Part shown: in pieces, positions 5,261-63,968 of the stretch | Layout: the number at the start of each line of letters is the position of its first letter | How positions within the stretch are numbered: position 1 is the first letter of the stretch | Assembly: GCA_903813345.2 (NCBI GenBank) | Contig: CAIIXF020000008.1 | Location: 26,088,822-26,152,821 of the forward strand | DNA: 64,000 nt | Direction of reading: 5' to 3' | From: Owenia fusiformis | Taxonomy: Eukaryota > Annelida > Polychaeta > Sabellida > Oweniidae | The notes under the pieces: generated by a model | What the model was told of the DNA's origin: nothing | Seen by the model: the letters and a program-made list of their open reading frames with translations, nothing else | Database searches by the model: none | Program-made: the position numbers and the translations under genes

Positions 5261-5888
5261 AAATCTGCTCCGGGCCAAGTTTTAGACGTGCAACAGTTAA
5301 CAGAGAATCACCAATGAGGCTGCTGCTCTCCGCCATGACCCACAGATGATTCAAAGAGGTATTCATGACATGCAGAGTAGAGCCAATCTCTGTGTGTAGA
5401 GAAATGGTGGCAATATGAAGGGGCGTTGAATGTAATCTTTCATGAGTAATCTTTCAGAAGATGACAGACAATGATAAAGTGATTTAACTGATTATGCCAC
5501 TTCTTTTTCCATCTGTAATAAGTAACATTGACTTAACCATCAAGGATAATAATGGACACTTAGTTAAATCGTGTTTTTTTGTAAATCTAAATCTAAAACT
5601 GATGTTATGTAAGTCTTATGACCAGAATTCAATCTCCAGCCCCAATTACATAATGATTTAACTGACTGCATGAACGCACAATAAGGATCAGTTGATTGAG
5701 AATATTTCATAACTTGGTACAAAGGTCTTTTCACTCAAAACAATGATTATTCAGTGGTCCATGATCACATATGAACAAATGACAAACATCATTGGAAACA
5801 TGGTTTCATGGTACCGTAAACTAAATGGAATTGATGTTATCATCACTGGTTTTGTGGTTTTACTATGTTTTTGCCAGTTTTTTTGGAT

Positions 5889-12400: not shown

Positions 12401-15400
12401 AAACATGTGTACAATATTTTCTACAAGATTTTGAAATTTAAGAAATATTTTGTCATGTTCTACAAGATTTTAAAGAATGCATATGCAAGATCATATGCAA
12501 GATCATAACATACATACAAACAACATCAATGAACTAAATACCAAACAAAGGAGGAATGGTTAATAGTTATGCACTTTCTATTATGGTTGAACATTCACTG
12601 GCTTAGTTGGGTTAGCAAATAAGATGGAAGGGAGAGAGTGGAGATTGAAACTCCTTTGTGAGAATTTGACTTTCAAATAGGAATATTGAATTCCTCAAGA
12701 ACTGATCATATTGTTAAGTTACATTTCCCAAGTTAGTACTGAATTCCCCCTATAAAATAAGATAAATGCCATATGCTATTGGGAAAACAATGTGTTAGAA
12801 ATAGTCCCAATTGCCACATGCTTTCAGGAAAACAATGTGTTAGAAATAGTCCCAATTGCTGTTAATTTATTGGAACTTATTGTCCACACCTCTCCCAATT
12901 GCTGTTAATTTATTGGAACTTATTGTCCACACCTCTATGTTCCATACTTTTTTGCTCAATGGGAACAAACATGAAAAAACAATGAAATACGTTAGTTGTC
13001 AAACATAGAAACAAACCTCATCTAATTGACTCTCCTCCTGTGCTGACTAGAATAGGATATGTCACATAATGTCACCTTATAATATGTCATGTTATACCAT
13101 GTCATGTTATGCTACATCACTCTTATTTTGTTATGCAGTATTATTAATACTATATGTTAGATCTCATTATATGCTACTACCACACTGTTATGTCACACCA
13201 TGATATATTACACTTGTTATACTCAATAGGACAAACTTATGTCACACTTGTTTCAGATGAAAGACATTCAAGGAAATGTGCATTACTGTTTAATTGAAGT
13301 GTCACACTTTTCTGCAGTATTAGTATTGGAAAAATCAAGATTGTATTAATTACCGATATTTAGAGTGCCAAATTATAAGTCATTTAGAAAATCAAAGTTC
13401 ACATGATTATGCTATGACTGAGTCATGTATACGATCTTGAAACAGAACTCAAGAAGTGTGAGCTTCACTAAAGCTACAAGCTTGACGAAATGTTTCTTTT
13501 TATATGCAGGACTTTTCAAGAGAGCGATAAAAATGTCTTGATTACCTTGTTATCAAACTTCATAACAGTGGATGTTGTCACTGGCTTTGGAGTTGATGTA
13601 CCACGAGATAACAGCGGAGAACCACCAGCTTCCTCCTTGTGCCACTGTGGAACTATGGGTAAATTTCTCATCTCCTTTACTGGAGAGCTCGGTGATGCAG
13701 GATTGTGAATGCCATTGGTGTGTGAGTGTGAGACACCACTACTCACAAGCCTGTAGGAAGAAGGATTTGAAAGATTAATCTCCCTCAGTTTCTGAGACTA
13801 ACATTTTTTAAAAAAATCTCCAAAATATTTTTCTACCATAAGAAACCGTACTTCAAATTCAAACTTAGCATGGGGCCCTTTAAGTTTTACCTATTATCAT
13901 GATCAGAACCATCAAAGCTGTAATCTGGGAGTCGTCTCGGGGGACGTGTGACACGTCTCTTGGGGGACACACCACGCTCATGGCCTGCAGATGATGATGT
14001 TGTGTCAGTGTCATCTGTCACTGATGTTGTCAATGTAGCAGTATTTGATGTCACTGGTGTGCCATCTGATGTCAGCTTCTGGTACAGTACCGTGCCTAAA
14101 ATATCCGATTTCATTATGAACTAATTGCAACACTATGAAGTAGCAAATCCCAACAAACAAGAAGATAGCTCCCACATCATTATGGGCTAAAGTAGTTCCA
14201 ATATAAATCATGCGTTTTTTATAATAGGAATAAATGTCAAAGACAATATCATATTTAAGATAATAACTGAACAATTTTCATTTAATATCACCTCTAAAAT
14301 AAATGATATAGCACACATCAAATGCACATAAAAGAAACAATTTAAACACTCTAGAATTCTGGAGCAATGACTCAACTATGAAAAATGGGGTTTTGACCAT
14401 TTCTTGGAATTTTGGATTTGTTTCCTACTTATCCTCCTCCTGAGCAGGTATCAAGAATCTGTACCTCCTTCTTCCCCCTGCTATAACCAATTTGGAAGCG
14501 CCCGATTAAACTGAATCACGTGATCTAATTATGCGCAATGACTTATACATGATTTCTGCAGCAGTATTGCGACAGTCAATCAGATTGTGAGTTCTTAATC
14601 GGGGAAATGCTAACTGCTTATCGCAGGGGGTAAAAAGAAAGAATATATTCTGGATTTTGAAGCCCTGTGATCGGAGGATGCCTACTCATCATCTGTCCTT
14701 TTCAACATTCTGATACTCATAGCATCTTTCTGTTTCACCTGAAACATCTCAGGGCTGAGAAGAAATGAAATGTCATGGTTTATCATGATGCCTTTTCAAT
14801 GCTCTATTTTCTACCTGTGTTTTTATGTTTTTGGTGCTTTCATCTTGGCACTCCTGTAAATGTACCAAATTAGAACGAGGACACTTGAGATACTTTTAGA
14901 TGAAGGGCTGATGCTGATTGTTACATTGGGTTCCCCATAATTAGAATGAGGACACATGATTTACCTTTAGATGAAGGGCTGATGCTACTGATTACATTGA
15001 GTTCCTCATAATTAGACTGAGGACACTTGAGTTACCTTTAGGCGAAGGGCTGATGCTGATTGTTACATTGGGTTCCTCATAATTAAAATGAGGACACTTG
15101 AGTTACCTTTAGGTGAAGGGCTGATGCCGATTGTTACATTGGGTTCCTCATACTGTAGAAGAAGAAAATATAACGAGGAAAATATTATAGCGAAAAATAG
15201 CGCCAGGCTTCGACCGTTATAATTAATTCCGCGAAAGTTTATTCAAAAAAATTAAAACTTACCGAAATCATGAAACACCAGAATGTTAAGTCGAAGTTTT
15301 ATTGCTACATTAGATTTACGAACGGTATTTTAATTACCTTTGCTACTAGAAAAAGAACGAACACAAAAACACATAATGTAAAACTACAAACATTGTTTCA

Positions 15401-18400
15401 AACTAAACAAAACAGAAACAATATAAACACAGTTTAGCATCTTATCAGAGCACCATTCCTGAAGAAAATATTTAGATACAGGGATAAGCTGTTTGTTTTC
15501 CCGCTGGCATTAAACATTATATTAGGCGATTATAAAGAAAGTCTTGTGTCACTGGTTTACTTGATTGTTATAATCCGTTAATTAGAATTAAAACTTACCT
15601 GGAAAGTACAATAAGTAAGCCAATAATTAATGGGTAATTACTGAGTGTATGTCTGTATACATTTATTGAAAAACAAAAGGCGAACTTGTTGTTGCTAATT
15701 TTATTCGTTCGTAAATTAAAAACGTCATGGCAAAATAGGTCGGGTTTTCTTTTGAATCAATACTGATTACGTACCAGGGAAACCAAATATGATGACTGTA
15801 TGAGTAATCAAACAATCAAGGAAGCATAATTAGTATTACAATGAGTATTCGAAAGTATATGAACCATGAGGAGCTTTCATTTAAACACAGTAAGTTCAAG
15901 TGAATTAGTAACTCTATTATCACTCACACAGCGGTAAGACCAACAATTTCGGGAATCAAGCATAAAAACCTCGGCTAGAACAATGGGCTTTCTAGACCTA
16001 GTTTGACATGAAATTATTGGGCTCTTGAACCGTTATAATTTCTTCTCGCGTTTTTTGATTTTGGCAGCATTTCGTTATAATTTGTTCCCGCTATAATTTC
16101 TTCTTCTACAGTAATTAGAATGAGGACACTTGAGTTGCCTTTAGACGAAGGGCTGATGCTGATTGTTACATTGGGTTCCCCATAATTAGAATGAGGACAC
16201 TTGAGTTACCTTTAGATGAAGGGCTGATGCTGATTGTTACATTGGGTTCCCCATAATTAGAATGAGGACATTTGAGTTACCTTTAGATGAAGGGCTGATG
16301 CTGATTGTTACATTGGGTTCCCCATAATTAGAATGAGGACACTTGAGTTACCTTTAGATGAAGGGCTGATGCTGATTGTTACATTGGGTTCCCCATAATT
16401 AGAATGAGGACATTTGAGTTACCTTTAGATGAAGGGCTGATGCTGATTGTTACAATGGGTTCCCCTTGATTAGAATGAGGACACTTGAGTTACCTTTAGA
16501 CGAAGGGCTTATGCTGATGGTTACATTTGGTTCCTCATAATTAGAATGAGGACACTTGAGTTACATTTAGATGAAGGGCTGATGCCGATTGTTACATTTG
16601 GTTCCTCATAATTAGAATGGAACACTTGAGTTACCTTTAGATGAAGGGCTGATGCTGATGGTTACATTGGGTTCATCCACAGGAGAATTGAGGGGGCTCT
16701 GGGGAGGTGTCTCTGTTTCAAGAATATTTTCCAAATCTCCAGCCGAAATATTACTAGCATCTGAAATATAAGTGAAAGCTGAATGCCAGAATCACACTTT
16801 AATTACTACCTCCATAGCAAGAACCTTAAACAGGCAAGACAATTAGGCATTTAAACAGTACTGTTTAATTTGAAAAAATATTTTTCAGTTACCATGAAAT
16901 TATGAACTGTTAATTATAATATCTTAAAATCCTCCACATTTTATCGCCACCAATTAACCACAATATTTACAATGAATAGGCATTGTCATCAATTTGAATG
17001 AATCTTGTACAATTAAATAGGCAGAAAGCACGTCATCACTTAATGGAAGAACCCTGGATAATTTCAATTATACTATAAAGGATGAATGACCTCTGATTTT
17101 TCTGTTCATTGTTAAAAGACTGAAATGACAGAACAATTGAAATCTTTGAATCTGGCAGAATAAAATCTATGGTCATATACTTGCTCTAAATCATGGAATT
17201 GAGGCCTTTATATATACCGGTATAGAAAACACCTATTTTAAAAGCAAATTTAGAGGTCATTGCTCAACATTTAGATTGTTTTTAAACTGTGCGTAGTAAT
17301 TAGTGTGTGGTAATGAGAGAGTAATTGGCCCAATTAGCATCTTAATAACAATTAGTCATGTCATAAAATCATGAGAAAACAATAATATAATTTCTAGAAA
17401 TATGAATAAACAGTATTTTTTGATGGTTTTACACAAGGTCATTAGCATCTGTATATATTATAAATACATATTTTCAATAAAATTAAAATCGAATCAATTA
17501 AACCCAAATGAATTAAGCCGCCAGCCAAACTAAAAGCCTAGAAAATCTTTATTTAATGTGATTTCCACAAAGAAGTTAATGTCTAATAAGCATTTGATAA
17601 ATAAGCATTTGATCTAAAGAAACTTCTTATCAATCATTCTGTTAGTATATGAATAAAACATGATCAATTCATTGCATTTAGCTCTATAGCATTATCTATT
17701 GCAAATAAATAAATAAAACAAGGCACATGACATGAACGAGATCACACCATCAAAAACTTTAAAAATGGCCGCCAGATAAAAATGGCTCCCCAGAAGTTAA
17801 TCAGCACTAGAACTTGATATCCTCTATCATGTGTGCAATTTGGAGACAATCAGACAAGCAGTTTTCCTGAAATGGCAATGACATGATTTATCGGAAAACC
17901 TTCAAAATGGCCACCAGAAAACAAGATAGCCCACCAAAACTTAATCGATCAGCTCTAGAACTTGATATCCTCTATCATGTGTGTGAATTTGGAGACAATC
18001 CAACAAGCGGTTTTCCTGAAATGGCGATGACAAGAATTTCCGAAAAACCTTAAAAATAGGCATATCATGTACAGGAAATCCGATGAGCAGTTTTCCTGAA
18101 ATGGCAATGACAAGATTTTTCGAAAAACCTTAAAAATGGCCACCAGAAAACAAGATGGACGCCCAAAAGTTAATCAGCTCTAGTACTTGATATCCTCTAT
18201 CATCTGTGCGAATTTGAAGGAAATCCGATGAGCGGTTTTCCTAAATTGGCGATGACAAGATTTTTTCGAAAAAACTTCAAATGGCCACCAGAAAACAAGA
18301 TGGCTGCCACAAAGTTAATCAGCTCTAGTACTTGATATCCTCTACCATGTGTGTAAATTTGAAGGAAATCCGATGAGTGGTTTTCCTGAAACGGCGATGA

Positions 18401-57400: not shown

Positions 57401-60400
57401 TAAATTTTTTAATTTTTCGGGCTTGCTTCGCTCCCAGTGATGCAAACCCCGAAAATCATACCCCCTTGACGATTGCGTAACACCCCTGGGAGATGTACAT
57501 TTTTTAATACCCTATAATAAAAATTGATACCTCAAAAGGGTCTTGAGTTCTGGTAACTGGTCCTTGGTGATCTCAGTTCTAATGGACTCCAGCCAGTATG
57601 GAATAATGTAGTCCCATACCTCATAGGTAACAATGTCATATGGGATCAAGCAGACTAGCTTCTGAAGGCCTTCTTTAATCTGTGTCTTTCTGGTTGACAA
57701 TGTGTCCCTGAAACCAAATATCATTATTCAGCAAAAGCATGTTCATATTCCCTAGTACGCTACATTCATCTATATCTGCAGTTTGGACCATAAATAAATG
57801 AGTCATGGATAAGCTGAAGTAAAGATTTCCAATGTCAAGAATAAGAGAATTTTTAGTGGATGAGAGTATACAAAATGTAAAATATACAATTTTTTCAGGA
57901 TATGTATATCTAGACAATATTGGAAACTATTGGCTTTCAAACCACCATGGTTTGGGAATGGTAATAGAAAATCAACTCCTCGTTTATTTATGGTCCAAAC
58001 TGTAAAATCTGAAAATCGCTATTATCAAAACTATTGCTATTATCACTAAGAAATGGGATTAGCTAGTAATATGACTTCATGCCAAATATCACTATGATTC
58101 CCTACCAATAACTATGTCTTAACAAGATAAGTATTTATTCACTTATAAACAATGTTTTGTAAGTGATGGCTCTGTATATACAGGGTGGGCCAAAAAAACG
58201 CCACTTTTTTTTCAAGCCACTATAACTTTTTTATTTTCCAACCTACATACCCCAAATTTTGCAGTTGTATAGTGCCAAGGGTTCTTAGTAATAATATAAT
58301 GTAACAAGTCCTTCAACTGGGATTATATTTGATCTAAAAGAGGAGTTCAATTGGTCCACCACCCCATTTGATGATAGATTTTAGTTTTAGTCGCCTTGCT
58401 GATATAGCAGTATCAATGAAATGTTAGCTATATTTTTTTCAACGTGTCTTAATTGCCAGCTTTAGTTAAGCAATTTTTTAGATTGGGTGCCTTCATACCA
58501 TCTCCTGGAGACCTCCCCATACCAGTGTATGCCCTAAGGATTCCAGAGCTGCTGGTCAAAAAGGCATTACTGACCAGTTGCAATGTTATTTTCCTATACC
58601 TAGTGAAAAAATCAACTGGTCAGTATCAAAAGTAACCAGATAATGACCAGCAGTCCGACGCTTAAGGCGTGCCCTGCCCCATACCCTATAATCACTTGGG
58701 TTTGAATTAGGGCTTTTAGCTTGTGGTCATCAGGGCGCATCAGTTTAGGAACATTATGCAAATTATGCTTATTTCTCATGGCACACCACATGGTTAAGTG
58801 AGACGCTGGTGACATATTTTATTCAAGTAAAAGTGTATAATTCATGATCAATGACTAGATAACAACCTCAAGTTTTATTTGGTATGTAAATTATGATTTT
58901 GTATCAAAAATTAAAAAGTTATAGCATTTTGAAAAAAAAGTGGCGTTTTTTTTTTGGCCCACCTATAGGTTCTTAGTAATAATATAATATAACAAGTCCT
59001 TCAACTTGGATTATATTTGATTTAAAAGAGGAGTTCAATTGGTCTGCCACCCTATTTGATGATATATTTTAGTTTTAGTCACCTTGCTGATATAGCAGTA
59101 TCAATGAAATGTTAGCTAAGTTTTTTTCAACCTGTCTTTATTGCCAGCTTTAGTTGAGTAATTTTCTAGATTGGGTGCCTTCATACAATCTCCTGGATAC
59201 CTTCTGATACCCTATACTCACTGGGGTTTGCATCAGGGCTATAAGCTTGGTGATCATCAGGCCGTATCAGTTCAGGAACATTTTGCAAATTATGCTTATT
59301 TCTCATGGCACACCACATGTTTAAGTGAGACGCTGGTGACATATTTTATTCAAGTAAAAGTGTTCAATTCATGATCCATGACTAGATAACAACCTCAAGT
59401 TTCATTTGGTATGCTAATTATGATTTTGTATGAAAAATTAAAAAAGTAATAGCATTTTGAAAAAAAGTGGCGTTTTTTGGCCCACCCTGTATATTATAAA
59501 ATTTAAATAAAAACATAGGATGATTTCATTTCGTTGCTACTAGTTTCTTGTTCAAATCCTCAGGCAACAGAATCACAGAATGACGTTATTTTATACTTAT
59601 ATATAAGCACTAGTGCCAAAGGGAAAGGACCAAAAGTTGTAACTTAGCAAGAAAAAGCAAACTCTAAATACATACCAGTCAAGAAAAACAAACCCCATAT
59701 AGCCCAAAACCATGATCTAATGTGAAAAGAAACAATGTCTAATACCCCCTTTCCCCCCACCATTCAAGAACCAATATCACAATCCAAGACCAGAAGACCA
59801 AGGGACATTTTATTCATACTGAAATCATTGCAATACATGTTGAAGAAAAAATTAGAAATTGATAGCCAATACTCATAACCTCAAAAATAGTTGTAGATAC
59901 AAGTACTCGTACAAGATGGGCATTCAGTCTCAAAATAGATAGAGTTGCGCCACATCCCACGTGTGATGACATAAGTACACACACTTTATACATTACAAAC
60001 ATAAGGGATTTATAAACACGCTAAAAGTACTGTTGCGAAATATCTCTAATATCGCTATTATCTCTAATAATGGCAATGTTGATATAATCTTTATCAGTAT
60101 AAGCAATAACATCAATATTATGAAAATCTTATTGATAATTGATAAAAGTGATTTCCGCACCTTAATGCTTGTTTTAGGTATCAATTGCCATTTGCCAAGG
60201 GTACCTTTACTATTGTCAAGATTGGACTATAAGGCGCACTATTAATATTCTTCAGAATAATCCACAGAATGTTCCCTTTTCATGTCCATGTTTTTATCTC
60301 TACTCTTTCAGAAAGACAGATACAAACAATATACCAATGGCAGTGGCGTAGCCAGGATTTAGTGACCGGGGGTTCTATTTTTATGTTATTCACAAATCCC

Positions 60401-63400
60401 CCCCCCCCCTTCTTCATTATAGGGTTCCTCAAAAAAAGCAATTTGTACAATTACACCCCCTCCAAAAGTTTGGCAATCCTAACTATCCCATTGGAGTATT
60501 ATGTATTAAAGCATCTTTAAGTTTGAATTCTTATTTGTTTAAAGAAAAAACTATTTTGGGAGGGGAAATATAATTCATTTTATACCTTCATTAAGTTAAG
60601 TAGACAATTGAATTTGAATTTTATTTAATAAAAATGATGCCTTTATTTTCGTCAAGCAAAGTCTGAAAGGATATTAAGAAACCTCTCCCATTAAAATAAC
60701 ACAAGACGTCAAAATGATTTTCATAAATGACCTTGTAGCTTTGTAACTTTAATGTTCACAAGTAAAATAAACAGGCAACGTGCAAAAAAGTCAAACAACT
60801 TATAATTGATTTTCTGCATCAAAATATATTTCGGTGAATCTTTCACTGAATAAATGTCCTAAAATCAGATTTGCCCCAAATCCACCATTATTTCGTCTGA
60901 TTTCTAGAAGACCCTGGAGCATGATTTGTTTCCAAGGAATACCAACAACTATTTCGCACAATTTATTCTTTAACTTCAGCTACTTCATCTAGGACAAAAT
61001 AAATCACCTCCTGCGATGGCTTATCATTATTTTTCAGGAATTTTTTGGAAGCCAGTTCGGATCAAATTGGTTTGAACTTTACTTCCTTCCGACACATATC
61101 GAATGACTAGAATTATGGTGGGGGTTAAGAATACTTTATCTGTCAAAGGTTTGAACGTCTGAGAAAAGATGTGTGTGTGTTGACGAGTCTTGTAATTGAT
61201 TAATATTGGTTTTAAAACCCATGTAACAGAGGGTGGGCCAGATATTTATTCGTCAATGTTGTAAAGATCATTCGAATGACTAGAATTATGGTGGGGGTTA
61301 AGAATACTTTATCTGTCAAAGGTTTGAACGTCTGAGAAAAGATGTGTGTGTGTTGACGAGTCTTGTAATTGATTAATATTGGTTTTAAAACCCATGTAAC
61401 AGAGGGTGGGCCAGATATTTATTCGTCAATGTTGTAAAAATCATTCGGGGTATGGGACGTCTGCATTGTTTTCAATAACTTTCAATAACTTCGTATTGAA
61501 CCAGAAGTGGTTTAAAACAAAATTCCTACAAAGGACTGATTTAGCCATTGCCCAAGATGGGTTATTTTGTCCGAGAAAAGCAGCTTTTAAGTTAATTGTG
61601 CGAAATTATTGATATTTCTAAATGTAAAATCTCATGCTCTGGAGTCTTCCCAAAATTAAATCTCACCCCGTGCCTAAGGTTGCCAAACGTTTTGAGGGAA
61701 GTGTAACTTCACTATGACATGTTTTAACAAAATAAGGCTCTCGTGTTCACCATAACAAATATCAATTCATTTACTGCTCATATAATATACTTATGTAGTT
61801 TTCAAATAGCACAGTAATTTAATGTTTCTGGTTATATGCATTTTTTCACAAAATGATATTTTGGGAAATCATGACCGGGGGTTCGTTCGAACCCACCGAA
61901 CCCCCGCTGCCTACGGCTATGCAATGGGATAGCACAGATATATATGAAAATAAATCTATTGTATATAAGCTCATGCAATTTCGGTCTTTTAAAAATGAAC
62001 AGAATAAAATTTCAGTCATATATTACGTCATCAATCATAAAATCTCAATCTTTATTTTTTAAATATATCACCATTCTTAATATGAGAGAATAACTTACCA
62101 ATGCCCTCCAACCCAAGCATATTCCATTGGATAAGGTAGTAGACATGAGAGATAACTTACCAATGCCCTCCAACCCGAGCATATTTCATTGGATGAGGTA
62201 GTAGACATGAGAGACAACTTACCAATGCTCTCCAAACTGAGCATATTTTAATGGATGAGGTAGTAGACATGAGAGATAACTTACCAATGCCCTCCAACCC
62301 GAGCATATTCCAATGGATAAGGTAGTAGACATGAGAGAATAACTTACCAATGCCCTCCAACCCGAGCATATTCCAATGGATGAGGTAGTAGACATGAGAG
62401 ATAACTTACCAATGCCCTCCAACCCGAGCATATTCCAATGGATGAGGTAGTAGACATGAGAGATAACTTACCAATGCCCTCCAACCCGAGCATATTCCAT
62501 TGGATGAGGTAGTAGACATGAGAGATAACTTACCAATGCCCTCCAACCCGAGCATATTCCATCGGATGAGGTAGTAGACATGAGAGATAACTTACCAATG
62601 CCCTCCAACCCGAGCATATTCCATTGGATGAGGTAGTAGACATGAGAGATAACTTACCAATGCCCTCCAACCCGAGCATATTCCATTGGATGAGGTAGTA
62701 GACATGAGAGATAACTTACCAATGCCCTCCAACCCGAGCATATTTCATTGGATGAGGTAGTAGACATGAGAGACAACTTACCAATGCTCTCCAAACTGAG
62801 CATATTTTATTGGATGAGGGAGTAAACATGAGAGGATAACTTACCAATGCCCTCCAACCCGAGCATATTTCATTGGATGAGGTAGTAGACATGAGAGACA
62901 ACTTACCAATGCTCTCCAAACTGAGCATATTTTATTGGATGAGGTAGTAGACATGAGAGATAACTTACCAATGCCCTCCAACCCGAGCATATTCCAATGG
63001 ATAAGGTAGTAGACATGAGAGAATAACTTACCAATGCCCTCCAACCCGAGCATATTCCAATGGATGAGGTAGTAGACATGAGAGATAACTTACCAATGCC
63101 CTCCAACCCGAGCATATTCCAATGGATGAGGTAGTAGACATGAGAGATAACTTACCAATGCCCTCCAACCCGAGCATATTCCATTGGATGAGGTAGTAGA
63201 CATGAGAGATAACTTACCAATGCCCTCCAACCCAAGCATATTCCATTGGATGAGGTAGTAGACATGAGAGATAACTTACCAATGCCCTCCAACCCGAGCA
63301 TATTCCATTGGATGAGGTAGTAGACATGAGAGATAACTTACCAATGCCCTCCAACCCGAGCATATTCCATTGGATGAGGTAAGTAGACATGAGAGGATAA

Positions 63401-63968
63401 GTTACCAATGCCCTCCAACCTGAGCATATTCCATTGGATGAGGTAAGTAGACATGAGAGGATAACTTACCAATGCCCTCCAACCTGAGCATATTCCATTG
63501 GATGAGGTTAGTAGACATGAGAGGATAACTTACCAATGCCCTCCAACCCGAGCATATTCCATTGGATGAGGTAGCAGACATGAGAGGATAACTTCAAAGT
63601 GTGTCTTACTGATGTCTTGAAGCCAGGAATAGATGTACTAAAAAGGAAAAGGTTTTTAAAAAAAGTACAAATAATATAAATCAATTTTTAGGTTTAAAAG
63701 TTTTGATTAAAAATTTATGTTATTTTTCGTTATTATCTTAGCCATTTTGAAGTGGCATAAAATTGACATAATTTCCATCAATTATTATTTAATTATTTTC
63801 ATTATTATAATAAATTCATACACATACACTCAATTATATCAAGTGTAGAGAGGGGTCTAAGCTGAAAAAATCATTGAGATCTCTGATTTACATAATATAC
63901 TTAACAAAGGATGGGCTGCAGTGTCCTTACCTCTGACTTCAATTTCTCAAGTGTAGTACCAACATTAT
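9308..63968 (-). CDS. unc79: UNC79 orthologue, NALCN channel-complex subunit (partial gene, 27 exons in window)
   Basis: UNC79 is a very large HEAT/armadillo-like scaffold. It pairs with UNC80 and binds the NALCN sodium-leak channel at the plasma membrane, setting resting excitability. I recognised it by matching successive minus-strand exons, in the right order, to vertebrate UNC79: blocks equivalent to PMEFARVGGYW, LCLIPYNVINQSVWE, SVQEQALLWL, NRFETLSLEAQL and MWLKALLVILYK each have a close counterpart here. Reading phases join across every accepted junction (uncertain exon E14 aside), which is hard to get by chance. The N-terminal part lies beyond 64000 and the C-terminal part beyond the left edge. 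Conserved helical-repeat exons (E1-E20) are followed by Ser/Thr/Pro-rich, low-conservation linker exons (E21-E26) and then the start of the next conserved block (E27). Introns run from a few hundred bases to several kb and are full of repeats. A Ras-like gene sits antisense in the E3-E4 intron. The gene identity is near certain; exact ends of a few exons are less so. Confidence 0.95.
10070..10229 (-). CDS. unc79: unc79 exon E26
   Basis: Acceptor attgacttcag, donor GAAA|GTAAGC, phase 0 to 1. Begins VEKKMVEQIQEFESQESRKS (likely helical, charged) and ends in a Ser/Thr-rich stretch (SLPSTMSTGDTLHPGSQTLS). Confidence 0.82.
10390..10560 (-). CDS. unc79: unc79 exon E25
   Basis: Acceptor acttatttcag, donor CAG|GTTAGT, 57 codons, phase 0 to 0. 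Starts RTLEKSFEEHIMAMAKGEDD and continues as a threonine-proline-rich run (LTPSPQAPLTPSTQGAPTPS, GATTPSTTPSAQ). A disordered linker with repeated TPS motifs. Confidence 0.83.
10765..11540. mobile_element. Interspersed element bounded by atcccaacgaac / gttcgttgggat
   Basis: Left boundary ggagtagcaaatcccaacgaac, right boundary gaacttcgttcgttgggat, an imperfect inverted pair. Inside are repeated blocks around gccattttgaatttt with gaggctcga-like words and a tail of gacggacggac units (11450-11500). A fragment of the same left end (gtagcaaatcccaacaaac) sits at 14141. Non-coding. Confidence 0.6.
11788..11901. mobile_element. Small foldback element
   Basis: gtctagctacaagcc at the left is inverted as ggcttgtagctagac at the right, enclosing a C-rich then G-rich loop. 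A hairpin of about 114 bp. Confidence 0.6.
12044..12370. mobile_element. Interspersed element, family copy A (copy B at 56640-57060)
   Basis: Shares with 56640-57060, in order: cctatgatttatga, atatgatt.ttatcca.gaatgg, atcatatca.gagtaaat.atagg, ttctttttattccatagt, and an end like tatcctatgaa...actatggaataa. Both copies are built from partly inverted arms. Confidence 0.6.
12780..12940 (+). repeat. Two overlapping local tandem duplications
   Basis: ggaaaacaatgtgttagaaa and the following tagtcccaattgc appear twice (about 12781 and 12829). The neighbouring block gctgttaatttattggaact plus tattgtccacacctct also appears twice (about 12858 and 12901). Copies are nearly identical, so they are recent. 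Confidence 0.8.
13035..13215 (+). repeat. Degenerate atgtcat-type repeat
   Basis: Short words such as atgtcatgttat and atgtcacacc recur irregularly. Intronic. Confidence 0.4.
13546..13750 (-). CDS. unc79: unc79 exon E24
   Basis: Acceptor cttcttcctacag, donor AAG|GTAATC, phase 2 to 0. Low-complexity linker: SGVSHSHTNGIHNPASPSSP, PIVPQWHKEEAGGSPLLS, TSTPKPVTTSTVMKFDNK. Several SP/TP dipeptides. Supported by splice sites and the phase chain. Confidence 0.82.
13891..14095 (-). CDS. unc79: unc79 exon E23
   Basis: Acceptor cggatattttag, donor AG|GTAAAA, phase 1 to 2. A Thr/Ser-rich stretch (TTSVTDDTDTTSSSAGHERG) is followed by a basic segment (SPKRRVTRPPRRLPDYSFDG). No vertebrate similarity can be seen; it is supported by phase and splice sites. 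Confidence 0.82.
14473..14630. mobile_element. Possible small MITE
   Basis: CCCCCTGCTATAA at the left faces TTATCGCAGGGGG at the right, 158 bp apart, in a segment richer in G+C than its surroundings. No clear target duplication. Confidence 0.35.
14866..16700 (-). repeat. Minisatellite of 12 copies of the unc79 E22 exon tail plus its splice donor
   Basis: A 71-bp unit; minus-strand order is GAACCCAATGTAAC..ATC, AGCATCAGCCCTTCATCTAA, AG|GTAACTCAAGTGTCC, then TCATTCTAATTATGAG. About 43 bases are exon E22 coding tail and 28 are intron start. Four copies lie left of an inserted transposon (14866-15152) and eight right of it (16112-16700), the last being the true exon end. Copies are 90% or more alike by eye. 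Confidence 0.95.
15153..16111. mobile_element. 959-bp non-autonomous DNA transposon with TA target duplication
   Basis: Ends are CTGTAGAAGAAGAAA at the left and its inverse TTTCTTCTTCTACAG at the right; flanking TA is present on both sides (15151-15152, 16112-16113). Removing the element and one TA restores the minisatellite word cctcaTAattag. Subterminal copies of cgttataatt are present at both ends. No transposase frame is visible, so it is a MITE-like Tc1/mariner-type derivative. Confidence 0.85.
16635..16760 (-). CDS. unc79: unc79 exon E22, whose 3' end seeds a minisatellite
   Basis: Acceptor cttatatttcag, donor AAAG|GTAACT, phase 1 to 1. Encodes DASNISAGDLENILETETPP, then QSPLNSPVDEPNVTISISPS and SK. 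It is a Ser/Pro-rich linker with two SP sites. The last 40 or so bases plus the donor are the first copy of the 71-bp repeat array that fills the start of the next intron. Reading past this donor in frame reaches a stop after seven codons (GNSSVPF then TAA). Confidence 0.85.
16764..17735. other. Intron, nothing recognised
   Basis: Plain A+T-rich intron sequence between the E22 acceptor and the satellite array; no repeat, RNA or coding signal seen. Confidence 0.5.
17740..19225 (+). repeat. Satellite-like array, about 145-bp unit, about 10 copies
   Basis: Each unit contains gttaatcagctctagtactt, gatatcctctatcat, gaaatccgatgagcggtttt, cctgaaatggcgatgacaag and aaaaccttcaaaatggc. Between units a cacgaccacgatcacga tract occurs at 18836-18892, followed by gactatatcccaacgatggt. 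The same end recurs at about 19186. It lies between unc79 E21 and E22. The several open frames are repeat shadows. Confidence 0.9.
19800..20100 (-). other. Unassigned open segment, possible exon or decayed gene piece
   Basis: On the minus strand, GGTEGYKFLCESHRICLCFC and KHDACLDSGQCVLKFVLC form a Cys-rich stretch richer in G+C than the intron around it, followed by a consensus GTAAGT. A second frame stays open over the same bases. No known domain is recognised, and fit to the unc79 phase is not shown. It may be an optional exon or a transposon fragment. Confidence 0.25.
20515..20775 (+). repeat. Three-copy tandem repeat, about 90 bp
   Basis: gataaaaatgattttcacac, then accagccatccatcca-type words, then caatagcaattatgtgtaga recur three times with drift. 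Confidence 0.65.
20937..20969 (-). CDS. unc79: unc79 microexon E21, 33 bp
   Basis: Acceptor tatttctatcag, donor GAG|GTAAGT, phase 1 to 1. Encodes DDPLEDVPMAR. The size (a multiple of 3) and symmetric phase make it a natural optional microexon; it lies in the variable linker. Both splice sites are strong. Confidence 0.78.
21235..21432 (+). repeat. 15-bp tandem repeat, about 12 copies
   Basis: Units of the form gattgggattcggac with point variants. Because 15 is a multiple of three, both strands show open frames (DSDxWD-type repeats on plus, SESQ-type on minus). There is no start or splice context for a gene. Confidence 0.8.
21460..21650 (+). repeat. Dispersed repeat, copy 1 (partner at 23615-23800)
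   Basis: aacaacattgtatca, acacctgct, tgtgagatac, acttgtttt and acaaacaagt recur in the same order at 23615-23800. Both copies lie in unc79 introns either side of E19-E20. Confidence 0.6.
22437..22584 (-). CDS. unc79: unc79 exon E20
   Basis: Acceptor ttgtttttccag, donor AGAG|GTCAGT, phase 0 to 1. Reads SSIQTLVRIALNTIDAQHHR, matching vertebrate KTLLHLIHITVNTLNAQYH. Beyond it the protein becomes a variable linker. Confidence 0.93.
22972..23197 (-). CDS. unc79: unc79 exon E19
   Basis: Acceptor attatttgtag, donor AAG|GTCAGT, phase 2 to 0. Contains AVFNAYLSGVCKVLDMNFPL and HTRKSWLKTLLVILYK, matching vertebrate CFNAFIAGIAQVMDYNINL and HIRQMWLKALLVILYK. One of the clearest exons. Confidence 0.97.
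23335..23380 (-). repeat. Degenerate copy of the E18 exon tail plus splice donor
   Basis: gcatattcaaataattacct with cagtttgtatgg reproduces, on the minus strand, the last bases of exon E18, its donor GTAATT and the first intron bases. A weaker copy is at 24471-24505. Neither has the rest of the exon. Confidence 0.55.
23615..23800 (+). repeat. Dispersed repeat, copy 2 (partner at 21460-21650)
   Basis: Same motif order as copy 1; a MITE is inserted immediately after it at 23807. Confidence 0.6.
23807..24176 (+). mobile_element. 370-bp TA-flanked MITE carrying promoter-like boxes
   Basis: Ends CCCTTTGCATTCG and GACTCTGCACGCAGGG with TA duplication at 23805-23806 and 24177-24178. The interior is G+C-rich and CpG-rich compared with the window. 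It contains TGACGTCA (23949), CCAAT at 23893 and 23976, its inverse ATTGG at 24036, and GGGGCGGGG at 24101. A 76-bp internally deleted sister is at 3541. Confidence 0.8.
24537..24619 (-). CDS. unc79: unc79 exon E18, 83 bp
   Basis: Acceptor ttcttttacag, donor AAG|GTAATT, phase 0 to 2. Reads SIVLRHLNVLLGYNQTEKAF and SVPPYKL (vertebrate TVKRHLYVLLGYDQQEGCF). The last few bases of the exon plus its donor recur, degenerate, in the downstream intron near 24497 and 23360. Confidence 0.93.
24620..25618. other. Intron E17-E18, nothing recognised
   Basis: A+T-rich; tattaataaattgaaattg-like stretches only. No supported exon or repeat. Confidence 0.45.
25619..25684 (-). CDS. unc79: unc79 exon E17, 66 bp
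   Basis: Acceptor tatgttgtag, donor CAG|GTACGC, 22 codons, phase 0 to 0. FMVNVEVEDQNEEQ and the acidic/Gln-rich end correspond to vertebrate FMAKDESSAESD. Confidence 0.82.
25975..26130. repeat. Self-complementary cluster of cggcaccg words
   Basis: ggcaccgtttc and its inverse gaaacggtgcc-type words alternate (for example gtttcggcaccgaaac near 26036, and tgccgaaacggcaccgaa near 26097). A G+C-rich foldback-capable stretch in an A+T-rich intron. Confidence 0.6.
26337..26458 (-). CDS. unc79: unc79 exon E16
   Basis: Acceptor aatttccttcag, donor AAG|GTAGGT, phase 1 to 0. Reads GGHLREFTDEESNFAALLQR, then MDLEGVDRETVHHLVTLLLK, matching vertebrate EDAGIDHQTVHQLITVLMK. Confidence 0.93.
26460..27593. 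other. Intron E15-E16, nothing recognised
   Basis: No coding or repeat signal beyond short low-complexity runs. Confidence 0.45.
27594..27713 (-). CDS. unc79: unc79 exon E15
   Basis: Acceptor ttccttacag, donor CCAG|GTGAGT, 120 bp, phase 1 to 1. Reads KPYTRQQSAPQFTIGGSTVW, then RRPSAARCGTSMFSNYIFP. It has no clear vertebrate counterpart but has ideal splice sites, correct phase and a higher G+C content than the surrounding intron. It is a linker between two conserved helical blocks. Confidence 0.82.
27714..29412. other. Intron upstream of E15, nothing recognised
   Basis: A+T-rich; a catcattaatcatc-type microsatellite-like stretch lies near 29190-29250. No gene. Confidence 0.45.
29413..29560. 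mobile_element. 148-bp double-hairpin MITE
   Basis: Outer arms ctaatgccttggtcacat and atgtgaccacggcattag. Inner arms ggccgattgagtattttgtt and aacaaaacactcaatcggcc. The two nested stems together cover most of the element. Confidence 0.85.
30197..31638. mobile_element. Large inverted-repeat element with a Tigger-like element nested inside
   Basis: The outer arms (about 66 bp) are at 30197-30262 and 31571-31638; they contain ccaaatggagatattgaggt and gaccctgggtgtaaatattg on one side and the inverse on the other. Between them lies the TA-flanked element 30473-31560. No transposase frame. Confidence 0.7.
30473..31560. mobile_element. TA-flanked element with CAGTAGA-type ends (pogo/Tigger-like)
   Basis: Left end CAGTAGACCTTGCTAAGTGG, right end the inverse of CAGTAGAACCTGTGTAAGTG, TA on both sides. 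Internal repeats of aagtggaacacc; two related internal blocks at about 30690-30870 and 30880-31050 (tagaaatattacccaaatta). The second block is related to 47405-47570. Confidence 0.75.
31640..33000. other. Intron, nothing recognised
   Basis: No gene seen; an AT-alternating tract lies at 32462-32492. Short open frames on both strands are unsupported. Confidence 0.45.
33112..33315 (-). CDS. Possible unc79 cassette exon E14 (uncertain)
   Basis: An open segment behind a good acceptor (gtatcttag) and in the right incoming phase: KGVDRFPKWQSLMYLSRWWL, then a Ser/Glu-rich stretch (TEDGDSNMEASTSESENSN). I do not recognise a vertebrate counterpart. Two donors are possible. GTAAAA (exon end 33118) makes a TAG stop at the junction with E15. 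GTGTGT (exon end 33112, listed here) keeps the frame open. Skipping the exon joins E13 to E15 in frame with a Glu codon. It may be an optional exon, a poison exon, or not an exon. Confidence 0.45.
34042..34221 (-). CDS. unc79: unc79 exon E13
   Basis: Acceptor ttattttaacag, donor AAAG|GTTTGT (a weak donor), phase 1 to 1. Reads FLRKINRARFALARTDSVRS and RRAASVPLHLINRTALPK, matching vertebrate LWKIKRARFARNRQKSVRS and KRALSLPETL. The segment is basic with RAAS-type phosphosite candidates (inference). Confidence 0.92.
34601..34802 (-). CDS. unc79: unc79 exon E12
   Basis: Acceptor ttatttacag, donor CAG|GTAAAA, phase 0 to 1. Contains CLEFQFDSVIDDRTMIL and FFLNRFDTLSLEAQLDLES, among the best-conserved stretches of UNC79 (vertebrate CLDFQFDTVVKDRPTIL and FFVNRFETLSLEAQLHLD). 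Confidence 0.96.
35028..35209 (-). CDS. unc79: unc79 exon E11
   Basis: Acceptor ttcccaacag, donor AAG|GTAAAT, phase 1 to 0. Reads VEKVTVLARLIEAKTIKNN, then SLAHTFCHLISSLDDMNPSV and VTRTRLYIETIKSSSVK. Vertebrate UNC79 has SLAHAFCCFLTAVEDVNPAV and ATRAGLLLDTIK. A 49-bp minisatellite starts about 130 bp upstream of this exon's acceptor. Confidence 0.95.
35342..37559 (+). repeat. 49-bp minisatellite, about 45 copies
   Basis: Unit: catgctattacgcaaggtcc, atttgctacttcaaattggc, cacagggac. Some units lack 8 bases (tgctatta). A variant, aagatctcttttctacttc, recurs near 36050, 36350, 36895 and 37222, showing higher-order copying. Because 49 is one more than a multiple of three and the unit has no plus-strand stop in any frame, open frames of up to 542 codons arise without being genes. 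The array lies just upstream of the unc79 E11 acceptor. Confidence 0.93.
37825..38045. mobile_element. Tail of an interspersed element with ggacggagg motif
   Basis: gacgtcaaaatcagcaaatt, ggaaatggcgataata and gacggacggagggacc with ctcactgtgtgagcc resemble the tail of the element at 10765-11540. Boundaries are unclear. Confidence 0.4.
38290..39145 (+). repeat. Minisatellite, about 54-bp unit, about 15 copies
   Basis: Unit words: atgttcaatgtcaattgtat, attgctgaactacaaatgg, aatcatatataatt. Small indels between copies. Intron E10-E11. Confidence 0.85.
39617..39774 (-). CDS. unc79: unc79 exon E10
   Basis: Acceptor aaattttcag, donor CAG|GTATGT, phase 2 to 1. Contains ALVCVPLLLHCLTLPSGSDI and FTDEDWRSRFAA, matching vertebrate SLAVPLLLHALSLPHGADI and FNSKDWKMRFEA. 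Confidence 0.95.
40111..40259 (-). CDS. unc79: unc79 exon E9
   Basis: Acceptor attattattag, donor AG|GTGAGT, phase 0 to 2. Reads SEALYNMLKGIKFLCLHSEV and continues NYSLNEHEDFVKFCMKKTLI, matching vertebrate DILFNMLNCLKILCLHGE and the following HPQFLAYIQDHMLI. Confidence 0.93.
40270..40515 (+). repeat. Degenerate repeat of aaaactcaaccc words
   Basis: Words such as cccagtaaaa, aaactcaaccc and aagtaaaactc recur irregularly at roughly 20-30-bp spacing, just upstream of the E9 acceptor. Confidence 0.65.
40840..42460 (+). repeat. Satellite-like array, about 160-bp unit, about 10 copies
   Basis: Units contain gaaaatccaaaatggc, aatcagttctagattttc, aagaatcatccctgaaaatt, tgaaattgatccctcaaac and gtagacaagactttacagac, with lengths of about 110-165 bp. 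Single related fragments occur at 43140-43200 and 51780-52010. Similar in style to the 17740-19225 array but not the same sequence. Confidence 0.85.
43268..43419 (-). CDS. unc79: unc79 exon E8
   Basis: Acceptor ttatttccag, donor AAG|GTAAAC, phase 1 to 0. An acidic, hydrophilic linker (KKENENSPEPPGNDDTSQG, EEKKTEEEPEPIFD) is followed by SSLPVHLQLLHEYLK, which matches vertebrate QQLPVTLRLIYTIFQ. Confidence 0.9.
43478..43820. mobile_element. Possible MITE with agatgcgagtag ends
   Basis: agatgcgagtag at the left and ctactcgcatct at the right, about 340 bp apart. No clear target duplication. It lies just upstream of the E8 acceptor. Confidence 0.5.
43821..45075. other. Intron E7-E8, nothing recognised
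   Basis: A+T-rich, no coding or repeat signal I can support. Confidence 0.45.
45078..47125. mobile_element. Nest of foldback elements
   Basis: Hairpin 45079-45271 has arms with gaatatgggttttattccga and its inverse around a core gagggagcgcagcgaccgag. A second hairpin lies at 46005-46135 (ggttttggatacagggaata). A 90-bp block starting ctgaaacctcacttgtcata is directly repeated at 45967 and 46896. Blocks of aatacgattttttcccgggg at 45370-45450 are inverted at 46640-46735. Homopolymeric A and T arms (45780-45930, 46225-46440) complement each other. The left end ggttatttactggg pairs with ctcagttaataacc near 47106. Confidence 0.75.
47268..47405. repeat. Two adjacent small hairpins
   Basis: gcaaaccccccaccgtcat with atgacggtggaggttgc, then agcaaacccccaactgtcat with acagtggggggtttgct. 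The hairpins are diverged copies of each other. Confidence 0.7.
47405..47572 (+). mobile_element. Fragment of the 30473-31560 element family
   Basis: atattaccataattaaatat, tcaatctacactatgtaaaa and cgatgaacttcattctccaa parallel 30890-31040. No ends are present. Confidence 0.55.
47963..48081 (-). CDS. unc79: unc79 exon E7
   Basis: Acceptor gtttatttcag, donor AAAG|GTACAT, phase 2 to 1. Begins LIEMLSPRLSVRIPQKGLPS, continuing the conserved ELLERLAP motif of vertebrates, then runs into a low-conservation linker (IEEITAKNNVQKGIARSNK). Confidence 0.88.
48112..48275 (+). repeat. Degenerate repeat of gttgattgacc words
   Basis: caacatgtgttgattgacc-like units, 7 or 8 copies at 20-25-bp spacing, just upstream of the E7 acceptor. 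Confidence 0.65.
48309..48486. mobile_element. 178-bp foldback element
   Basis: Arms atatagatcgaatagcaggg, taatatcgtcgaataca and agggctaggcac face their inverses (gtgcctagccct, tgtattcgacaatattaccc, ctgctctgaggtctatat). Confidence 0.8.
48865..49091 (-). CDS. unc79: unc79 exon E6
   Basis: Acceptor ataattttcag, donor AA|GTAGGT, phase 0 to 2. Contains LTEMLRAPWEGVHTCGQG and NNLGCNFCETIALWHQLSMK, matching vertebrate NNVFQAPWGGSHTCQ and ECNLCQSSILCYQLACE. The CxxC pair (CNFC) is conserved. The donor was chosen because AA plus the G of the next exon keeps the Q-L-x-x-x-L-x-E-x-L-x-P pattern in frame. Confidence 0.92.
49173..49314 (+). repeat. 70-bp tandem duplication
   Basis: cttttgccatgtgtcatgca, ctggatttcaaggg and actataatagctgtcattat occur twice 70 bases apart with one or two differences; a recent event. 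Confidence 0.85.
49315..50038. other. Intron E5-E6, nothing recognised except a repeat fragment
   Basis: 49480-49600 (aggtcagatgtgaactcctt, acaacttgtagatg) is related to 23520-23600; otherwise plain A+T-rich intron. Confidence 0.45.
50038..50140 (+). repeat. 25-bp tandem repeat, 4 copies
   Basis: aattttaccatatgaaaata plus aataa, repeated four times. Confidence 0.85.
50625..51215. mobile_element. Foldback element with gcgaagcga core
   Basis: Hairpin 50628-50745: gatatcattttatcgcc arms and tcaaatatcaacac around gagtgagcgaagcgaatgag. A following segment is bounded by tttatcccatgattac (50760) and taatcgtgggataaat (51198-51213). Confidence 0.65.
52183..52476 (-). CDS. unc79: unc79 exon E5
   Basis: Acceptor tgttttccag, donor CAG|GTGAAT, 98 codons, phase 0 to 0. 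It opens with ILSSVDIVIPMKLLLSIFKT (vertebrate LSELDIMVPLQLLISMF). An acidic DDDDE stretch and a serine-proline-rich loop (FSPTSPLEEFFPGSPLTP) come next, the latter corresponding to the vertebrate SPF-repeat loop. The exon closes with ELNLTCCIMMVDIVIKQ (vertebrate EMNLNCFILMFDLLLKQ). The SP-rich loop is a plausible phosphorylation region; that is inference. Confidence 0.93.
53028..53151 (-). CDS. unc79: unc79 exon E4
   Basis: Acceptor tgtttccag, donor CAA|GTAAGA, phase 2 to 0. Reads SKLFDIEMGPLPFLTEKIYH and, at its end, TPASVQEQTLQWLQ, matching vertebrate SKMFDIELCPLPF and YPSSVQEQALLWL. The intron upstream of it (53152-57530) contains the antisense GTPase gene. Confidence 0.95.
53610..53995 (+). 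repeat. Second locus of the 17740-19225 satellite family
   Basis: Two and a half units (gttaattagctctagtactt, gaaatccaatgagcggtttt, tggcgatgtcaagatttttc) are followed by the same ending, a cgaccacgatcacgaccac tract at 53885-53945 and gacgacttacgtcaatgta. It lies between unc79 E4 and the GTPase gene. Confidence 0.9.
54586..55880 (+). CDS. Ras-superfamily small GTPase, divergent, nested antisense in an unc79 intron
   Basis: Three exons, 54586-54727, 54928-55101 and 55288-55880, joined in phases 1 and 1, give 302 residues. The P-loop GAGNVGKT lies at residues 10-17. Switch I keeps Tyr32, Pro34, Thr35 and Tyr40 in exact Ras numbering (EYSPTIQENY). G3 is DTAGF (58-62), so the catalytic Gln is Phe. 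G4 is NKNE (117-120), with Glu in place of Asp, and G5 is ETNV (146-149). The GTPase core ends near 165. A Lys/Ser-rich tail of about 135 residues follows, with a basic KGKPKTK patch, and it ends KLLRTKSFI without a CAAX box. DTAGFYEFPMMRE recalls the RASD (Dexras/Rhes) group, which also has an altered G3 and a long tail, but that placement is tentative. A TATA-like atataaat lies at about 54503 and AATAAA signals at 55891 and 56151. Introns exclude a recent retrocopy. Confidence 0.88.
55891..56156 (+). terminator. Candidate polyadenylation signals for the nested GTPase gene
   Basis: AATAAA occurs at 55891-55896, eleven bases after the stop codon, and again at 56151-56156 in an A-rich, T-rich tail. 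The second is the more likely working signal, as the first would leave almost no 3' untranslated region. Confidence 0.45.
56640..57060. mobile_element. Interspersed element, family copy B (copy A at 12044-12370)
   Basis: Contains an inner palindrome around atatgatatctgcagatatc, with tccacgaatggatatga facing atatccatgagtgga. It ends in ctatggaataa, directly followed by attccatagttag. Confidence 0.65.
57365..57475 (+). repeat. Dispersed repeat related to 1725-1860
   Basis: attgcttagaatgcacca, caatgtaaatttttt and cagtgatgcaaacccc are shared with the copy near the left end. Confidence 0.5.
57531..57707 (-). CDS. unc79: unc79 exon E3
   Basis: Acceptor ttggtttcag, donor AG|GTATCA (a weak donor), phase 2 to 2. 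The first G completes the Trp codon of E2. Reads DTLSTRKTQIKEGLQKLVC, then LIPYDIVTYEVWDYIIPYWL and ESIRTEITKDQLPELKTLL. Vertebrate UNC79 has QLKEGLNRILCLIPYNVINQ and EWLEAIRTEVPDNQLKEF in the same place. Confidence 0.95.
58181..59489. mobile_element. Dimeric MITE with CAGGGTGGGCCAAAAA ends, TA-flanked
   Basis: Left end CAGGGTGGGCCAAAAAAACG, right end the inverse, TA at 58179-58180 and 59490-59491. A third end (aagtggcg, poly-T, ggcccacct) sits in the middle near 58940-58963. The body 58279-58965 is repeated as 58968-59489 with about 90% identity by eye and an internal shortening. The second unit lacks its left end. Confidence 0.85.
60341..61926. mobile_element. Decayed interspersed element with tggcgtagccagg / ggctatgcaatgg ends
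   Basis: Starts cagtggcgtagccagg, ends ctgcctacggctatgcaatg; both ends are next to gaccgggggttc words (60364, 61873). Inside is a 173-bp near-perfect tandem duplication (61101-61273, 61274-61446). No transposase frame found. Confidence 0.6.
61101..61446 (+). repeat. 173-bp tandem duplication, nearly identical copies
   Basis: gaatgactagaattatggtg through cgtcaatgttgtaaa occurs twice, with essentially one difference near the end (gatcattc versus aatcattc). A very recent duplication. Confidence 0.9.
62082..63595 (-). repeat. Minisatellite of 24 copies of the unc79 E2 exon tail plus its splice donor
   Basis: A unit of 61-64 bp is repeated 24 times, the right-most copy lying inside exon E2. On the minus strand each unit reads AAGTTATC-TCTCATG..., then HPMEYARVGGHW coding sequence, then ...GGGCATTG|GTAAGTTATC. 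Each copy therefore carries the exon's last 40 or so coding bases and a consensus 5' splice site. One copy near 63392 has GTAACT instead of GTAAGT. A variant unit (gctctccaaactgagc) occurs at about 62226, 62786 and 62910. A block of four or five units at 62157-62430 recurs at 62841-63115, showing array-internal duplication. Confidence 0.95.
63534..63637 (-). CDS. unc79: unc79 exon E2, whose 3' end seeds a minisatellite
   Basis: Acceptor cctttttag, donor CATTG|GTAAGT, phase 0 to 2. It encodes YIYSWLQDISKTHFEVILSC followed by LLPHPMEYARVGGHW, closely matching vertebrate CLLPKPMEFARVGGYW. The last 60 or so bases are the first copy of the 62-bp repeat array that fills the start of the following intron. 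The authentic donor must be this first one: continuing in frame past it gives TGG TAA, a stop. Confidence 0.93.
63931..63968 (-). CDS. unc79: unc79 exon E1 (first in window), 38 bp
   Basis: A short exon between acceptor ...ataattgtag and donor GTAAGG. It enters in phase 1 and ends in phase 0. It reads DNVGTTLEKLKSE (first residue split), matching the vertebrate segment DDEVGSLVEKLKPQ. The preceding exon lies beyond the right edge of the window. Confidence 0.85.

Follow-up and report, generated by a model that had tools for sequence, protein, structure and literature searches.

The E2-E3 intron of the UNC79 gene, which lies on the minus strand of the 64-kb stretch of Owenia fusiformis DNA analysed here (the window), opens with a row of near-identical 5' splice sites, and the locus raises the question of how a splice donor came to be copied so many times and whether the copies do anything. 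The exons that frame the intron leave little doubt about which donor is the correct one. Joined in frame, E2 and E3 read ...HPMEYARVGGHWDTLSTRK..., and the junction product YIYSWLQDISKTHFEVILSCLLPHPMEYARVGGHWDTLSTRK... is a single open frame that matches the Pfam UNC-79 family (PF14776) with an E value of 7e-41 and solved unc-79 chains with an E value of 2e-28, in an alignment that spans the junction. The initial annotation of this DNA was therefore right that the tail of E2 codes for conserved sequence. Since the junction lies inside the conserved UNC-79 domain, within the motif ARVGG[H/Y]WD of the unc-79 chain alignment, the exon-proximal donor must be the authentic one. Read-through past E2 gives W-stop (TGG TAA) at once. 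The intron, earlier estimated at about 6 kb, measures 5,826 nt.

Two other features of the region were seen by eye. A small GTPase-like gene (LYDVALLGAGNVGKTALL..., ILDTAGFYEF...) occupies 54587-55880 on the plus strand, in opposite orientation inside the UNC79 region, and at 58190-59490, within the E2-E3 intron, two similar repeat copies adjoin one another, with ends matching 'ggcgtttttt...ggccca'; the pair is probably a nested or duplicated mobile element.

Table 1. Features of the UNC79 locus and of the second exon-tail array in the 64-kb window.
Feature	Position	Strand	Basis or remark
UNC79 exon E2 (104 nt)	63534..63637	-	ends CAT TG, phase 2; UNC-79 domain
Authentic E2 donor GTAAGT	63528..63533	-	E2-E3 junction encodes conserved VGGHWD
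UNC79 exon E3 (177 nt)	57531..57707	-	starts G GAC ACA
E2-E3 intron (5,826 nt)	57708..63533	-	array at its head
Minisatellite, 23 tandem copies of E2 tail + donor	62082..63593	-	in intron, overlapping exon tail; TRF and unit split
Sole mutated donor, GTAACT	63400..63405	-	unit split
Six-unit block U6-U11 (373 bp)	62845..63217	-	duplicated as U17-U22
Six-unit block U17-U22	62161..62533	-	copy of U6-U11
Interspersed repeat beyond distal array end	61411..61921	.	at least 39 further copies at 90-95% identity (40 of 1,462 candidates scored)
Fragment of another interspersed repeat	62000..62068	.	~14 bp from distal array end; end approximate
Second exon-tail + donor minisatellite	16112..16674	-	unit 71 bp, 7.9 copies, donors mostly GTAACT
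Displaced part of 71-bp family	14868..15160	-	4.1 copies
Probable exon ASNISAGDLENILETETPPQSPLNSPVDEPNVTISISPSSK, tail founding the 71-bp array	16635..16760	-	same strand as UNC79

TRF returns a single array at 62082-63594, with a period of 62, 24.2 copies and 95% matches, and its repeat unit is, as had been proposed, the last ~60 nt of E2 followed by the donor. The initial annotation had placed the minisatellite at 62082-63637, a range that contains the array and also takes in exon E2 itself. Splitting the minus strand at donors yields 24 donor-like sites, from 63533 down to 62098; the earlier count of 24 tandem 5' splice sites thus holds, except that one of them is the real donor, which leaves 23 decoys. 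Retention is even higher than the 20 or more copies first claimed, with GTAAGT at 23 of the 24 sites and GTAACT at the other. Most of the 23 units (17) are 62 bp long, three are 63 bp and three are 64 bp; the 64-bp units are those nearest the exon. The exon's CC is common to the exon-proximal units, as expected for an array edge that escapes homogenisation. Farther in, the two six-unit blocks show a single difference in 373 bp, as unequal exchange would leave, and on this evidence the duplication appears recent. Units differ from their consensus at 0-8 columns in the 23-unit alignment, and judged by its sequence the array as a whole is young. Some 14 bp separate its distal end from the neighbouring transposable-element fragment.

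Could a row of this kind have been created in assembly? The array is known from one assembly, in which a search with its sequence finds it in a single place (40 of 336 candidates scored). Its units, however, carry ordered variants, length differences near the exon and a block duplication, and other genes have arrays of this kind as well, all of which makes an artefact extremely unlikely.

Three other descriptions of the array were considered and rejected. The stop-to-stop open frames inside it move in step with the 62-bp repeat and terminate in the donor's TAA, and were not counted as genes. The sites read TTG/GTAAGT and lack the juxtaposed AG/GT of recursive splice sites. Finally, the unit has no AG after a pyrimidine tract, as read from the alignment by eye, and so is not a tandemly duplicated exon.

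One function put forward in the initial annotation is that of a U1 snRNP landing strip. In the form weighed here, U1 bound at the decoys would prevent premature polyadenylation or accelerate removal of the intron, and selection would maintain the sites. The density of sites is in keeping with this proposal: 23 GTAAGT fall within 1.5 kb, the remaining 4,374 nt of the intron have none in the sense orientation, and each of the 23 is predicted to be able to form a 7-bp duplex with U1 (-9.1 kcal/mol, compared with -14.0 for the full consensus). U1 telescripting is a known system, and donor-like sites at the head of the UNC79 intron could likewise bind U1, but they differ in having no extra conservation in a low-power test and no detected link to poly(A) signals. 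When the 23 units are aligned, one alternative state occurs in the six donor columns (1 of 138 cells) and 16 occur in the remaining columns (47 of 1,334 cells). If the unit is scanned in windows of six columns, 29 of the 59 windows hold no more alternative states than the donor hexamer. We thus detect no extra conservation of the donor hexamer across these units, in a test whose power is low (17 states in all) because the array is apparently young. Youth of this order, 23 units lying 0-8 columns off their consensus, would also mean that retention of GTAAGT needs no selection. Outside the array, poly(A)-signal hexamers likewise show no depletion in the sense orientation of the intron, with 17 on that strand and 13 on the antisense. 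Taken together, these observations make selection for U1 binding very unlikely. The copied codons, for their part, carry protein-altering changes such as M-E to I-K, R to Q and V to F in the unit alignment, and since such changes occur freely the copies are not kept as coding sequence.

UNC79 is not the only gene with an array of this type. We searched the genome (498 Mb in 525 contigs, of which C1-C12 are large) for three exact donors in tandem and, by motif search and reading, recognised at least 31 arrays in which an exon tail is repeated together with that exon's donor; for about half of them, databases support the exon. The 31 comprise 17 arrays found with AGGTAAGTT, eight with TGGTAAGTT, four from the set of arrays read first, the UNC79 array and a second array in the window. 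The last appears to have been split in two by inserted sequence (Table 1). A PDB search with its ASNISAGDLENILETETPPQSPLNSPVDEPNVTISISPSSK exon gave no match and so did not link it to UNC79. The window also holds a 49-bp minisatellite of ~45 copies by TRF (35358-37547), whose consensus unit has no GTAAG on either strand.

The AGGTAAGTT motif occurs in tandem in 126 matches, and the 100 listed represent the 17 distinct arrays (L009, L017 and L019-L033), with the patches at C3:33735188-33738583 counted as one. Their 5' edges were all read, two of them by way of the longer sequences L088 and L089, and every one of the 17 lies at the donor of a coding-looking exon behind an acceptor. Sixteen begin at the exon (L031 with an interruption of ~350 nt); in L030 the start of the array lies 87 nt past the donor, and the 28-bp unit there bears no more than a resemblance to the exon tail. 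Seven of the 17 exons have Pfam matches with E < 0.01, to UDP-glucose dehydrogenase, FANCI (below Pfam's own cut-off), TPR, methyltransferase, Cys-loop receptor, PP2A B56 and FAD-binding domains. One further exon matches neuronal calcium sensor 1 in the PDB, one each is weakly similar to ABCC5 (E 0.01) and tetraspanin (E 0.06), and the remaining seven were judged by eye.

With TGGTAAGTT, 188 matches were obtained. The 100 listed contain 14 arrays, of which eight begin in an exon tail and six do not, or not clearly; the eight include tails with an MBT repeat (E 1e-32), Ssl1 (E 3e-26), importin beta (E 8e-5) and, weakly, TSP_1 (0.03), the other four being assigned by eye. The UNC79 array also carries TGGTAAGTT, among the matches beyond those 100. 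Ten arrays had been read first. Two are L009 and L017; four of the other eight are exon tails, of Muted (E 6e-15), NIF phosphatase (E 4e-6), MRPL52 (E 6e-7) and, by eye, the exon of L011. Reading did not establish exon-tail status for L012, L013, L014 and L016. Gene names used for these other arrays beyond the stated Pfam and PDB matches are our presumption. For the array at C2:31803565 we considered a reiterated micro-exon that brought an acceptor along, a reading dismissed when a longer sequence (L079) revealed an ordinary exon tail.

Two of these loci have unusual sites. Behind the MRPL52-like exon (L018, C3:3278600-3280300), 59-bp units carry AG/GTAAGT donors; matches run from C3:3279807 to C3:3282705, ~2.9 kb or more, and about 50 donors are listed for this gene. 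Each site there has the AG/GT juxtaposition needed for recursive splicing, in contrast to UNC79. At L016 (C1:51116200-51118300), where no exon was recognised upstream of the array, the 58-bp unit has acceptor-like and donor-like sites six bases apart (CTCTCATAG/TCCTAG/GTAAGT).

The mirror-image arrangement is also found. All 71 tandem matches of TTTTGCAG were listed, and they form 20 arrays, in four of which (L034, L036, L039 and L049) the unit reads as an acceptor joined to the start, or head, of an exon, the genuine exon lying at the 3' edge; Pfam lends weak support to L034 (E 0.0015), and the other three were assigned by eye. Exon-head arrays thus stand beside exon-tail arrays, and both ends of exons are affected in one genome.

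We considered whether the decoys might regulate the genes that carry them. If some UNC79 molecules used a later donor, they would gain TGG TAA and be degraded, and copy number could tune the amount of UNC79 protein. The later donors match the true one and lead to an immediate stop in UNC79, and 23 of the 30 placed arrays likewise meet a stop before the second donor. Yet intronic stops are common by chance, and the UNC79 decoys show no sign of selection in the low-power conservation test. The initial annotation had held that every later donor would abort the protein; this is true of UNC79, where the stop forms at E2's own junction, but not of the class, since seven of the 30 arrays reach the second donor with no stop, and abortion is accordingly no class rule. 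In six of these (L009, L022, L023, L029, L078 and L079) the frame is kept and stays open as far as the second donor; L025 has a stop shortly after that donor. The distance to the next donor is a multiple of three in nine of 30 arrays, with 10 expected by chance, so the spacing ignores the reading frame. We therefore regard a regulatory role as improbable. In L079 (C2:31803000-31804400) and L009 (C1:441500-444400) the units are 54 bp, open and in frame, and later donors, if used, would add hydrophobic repeats to a membrane-like segment.

The recurrence of these arrays raises the further question of whether donors are mutational hotspots. Exon-intron junctions could be unusually prone to found minisatellites through a process tied to transcription or splicing, so that 5' splice sites would be preferred birthplaces in this genome, several times above comparable motifs, by way of microhomology between AAGT and the exon or of transcription- or splicing-linked breakage. 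At least 17 arrays at 5,498 AGGTAAGTT sites, compared with 20 at 32,164 TTTTGCAG sites, give an odds ratio of 5.0 (Fisher p 5e-6), and TGGTAAGTT has 188 matches against 41 for its reversed control. Judged by eye in both cases, exon ends account for each of the 17 listed AGGTAAGTT arrays and for 6-9 of 20 single AGGTAAGTT sites. The single sites are 20 of the first 21 non-array sites listed, C1:444581 being skipped as near an array. Sixteen of them gave peptides of a length suitable for Pfam, with two host exons and one reverse transcriptase recognised.

Other comparisons weaken the case. Against TTGAATGGA (11,737 sites), the ratio is 4.0 (p 5e-4) only when a single interspersed 32-bp family is excluded (9 arrays listed), and it falls to 1.3 (p 0.42) once the 19 listed loci of that family are counted (28 arrays). 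Exon status was assigned by eye and unblinded; by Pfam alone the contrast is 7 of 17 with 2 of 20 (p 0.05). The arrays come from 100 listed of 126 and 100 listed of 125 matches for the two motifs. GTAAGT in tandem gives 7,670 matches and its reversed motif 7,614, no excess, and the corresponding figures are 580 and 330 for AGGTAAGT, 126 and 125 for AGGTAAGTT, and 71 and 37 for TTTTGCAG. Because match counts depend on array length, distinct arrays were counted by eye. A donor hotspot is thus possible but doubtful. If it were real, large numbers of introns might start with dozens of near-identical donors, among which the splicing machinery must choose by position alone.

Tandem duplication of exon-adjoining sequence with splice signals has reportedly been described before as a source of new introns, arising around AG/GT proto-splice sites (work of Rogers, of Gao and Lynch, and of Zhuo et al.). 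The UNC79 case resembles this process in the kind of sequence duplicated, but differs in that an old intron was lengthened and no new one made, and its units, as read, show no acceptor that could be used. The intronic VNTRs with effects on splicing in human ABCA7 (PMC5954066) and TERT (VNTR6-1, PMC11830802) are also tandem repeats within introns, but the available parts of those papers do not describe units that copy an exon tail and donor.

Although the initial annotation knew of no system like this one, a closer precedent exists in amphioxus. The 'mirages' of that animal are, in the accessible portions of two papers (PMC3087553, PMC3902484), tandem minisatellite-like repeats that span exon-intron boundaries, with repeated splice signals, and seem not to disturb splicing; the genes named there are Adh3, the globins BflGb6 and BflGb9, troponin C and PGBD5, and length instability between alleles or in somatic cells is given as a trait. 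UNC79 units similarly span the boundary, carry coding sequence and repeat the splice signal (23 of 24 GTAAGT). On undisturbed splicing the intact UNC79 frame and conserved E2-E3 junction bear indirectly, as does the block duplication on length instability. Both 5' and 3' boundaries are hit, in amphioxus according to those portions and in the Owenia genome by reading. Variable unit length (10-72 bp in amphioxus Adh3) and block-wise homogenisation with less homogenised edges are further likenesses to what they describe. The differences are of scale and of evidence: those portions report few amphioxus genes, with BflGb6 haplotypes of 6 and 3 units, whereas here there are more copies (23 decoys in UNC79, about 50 donors in the MRPL52-like gene) and 31 arrays in one genome, known from sequence alone. 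A full-text literature search, judged on titles and the beginnings of abstracts and with thin coverage of subscription papers, brought up no similar report that we recognised outside amphioxus; one abalone paper concerns, in the part available, an ordinary intronic minisatellite.

We conclude, with a probability of about 0.8, that the UNC79 array is a minisatellite of the mirage type that is tolerated by splicing. A young, tolerated repeat would fit a donor no more conserved than the rest of its unit, codons that change freely and a recently duplicated block, and of the suggestions in the initial annotation, that of a neutral array tolerated because the exon-proximal site wins appears to fit best. 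By reading, 30 other sites in the genome count as recurrences. We suggest that the array was founded by tandem duplication of a segment running from within E2 to a point a few bases beyond the exon end, that this event was favoured by a short match, AAGTTATCC in the exon with AAGTTAT among the donor's own intronic bases, and that slippage and unequal exchange then expanded the array into the intron. The exon and its donor would stay intact because growth is on the intron side. The exon-proximal donor is expected to remain in use, and later sites to be ignored or their products destroyed because read-through meets a stop at once.

The proposed match has several counterparts. The AAGTTATC(C) that the initial annotation had noted in both exon and donor, and offered as a seed for slippage or unequal exchange, is real and plausible in that role. 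The exon and the distal intron tail both contain AAGTTAT[C/T]CTCTCAT. The exon has GAAGTTATCCTCTCATG where the intron behind the last donor reads GTAAGTTATTCTCTCATATTAAG, a match that could reflect the original microhomology or, alternatively, an incomplete final copy. Similar microhomologies are present at the tetraspanin-like array (TACATAATTA) and the CTDNEP1-like array (AAGTGTT); one was sought at L011 and was absent.

Founding by microhomology, use of the first donor and absence of function are what we infer, and some observations sit uneasily with a tolerated mirage. Microhomology fails at L011, and the conservation test is of low power. Plain random birth would not predict that AGGTAAGTT is found in arrays five times more often than TTTTGCAG. 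The 24 sites are near-identical, so site strength cannot explain why the first should win; position must. In this respect, cell-free tests by the Eperon group, in which strong competing donors nearer the acceptor can reportedly win, count against the reading.

The interest of these arrays lies less in UNC79 itself than in the recurrence of rows of near-identical donors at many genes. Each array sets up a natural competition among several to several dozen donors that share one sequence and almost the same context and differ mainly in their distance from the exon, and together they offer, across many genes, a ready test of how the first donor is chosen. Their number suggests that boundary-spanning minisatellites are a frequent route of intron growth in some animals. 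They might in addition supply material from which new introns evolve, and those whose unit stays open and in frame could give rise to longer proteins.
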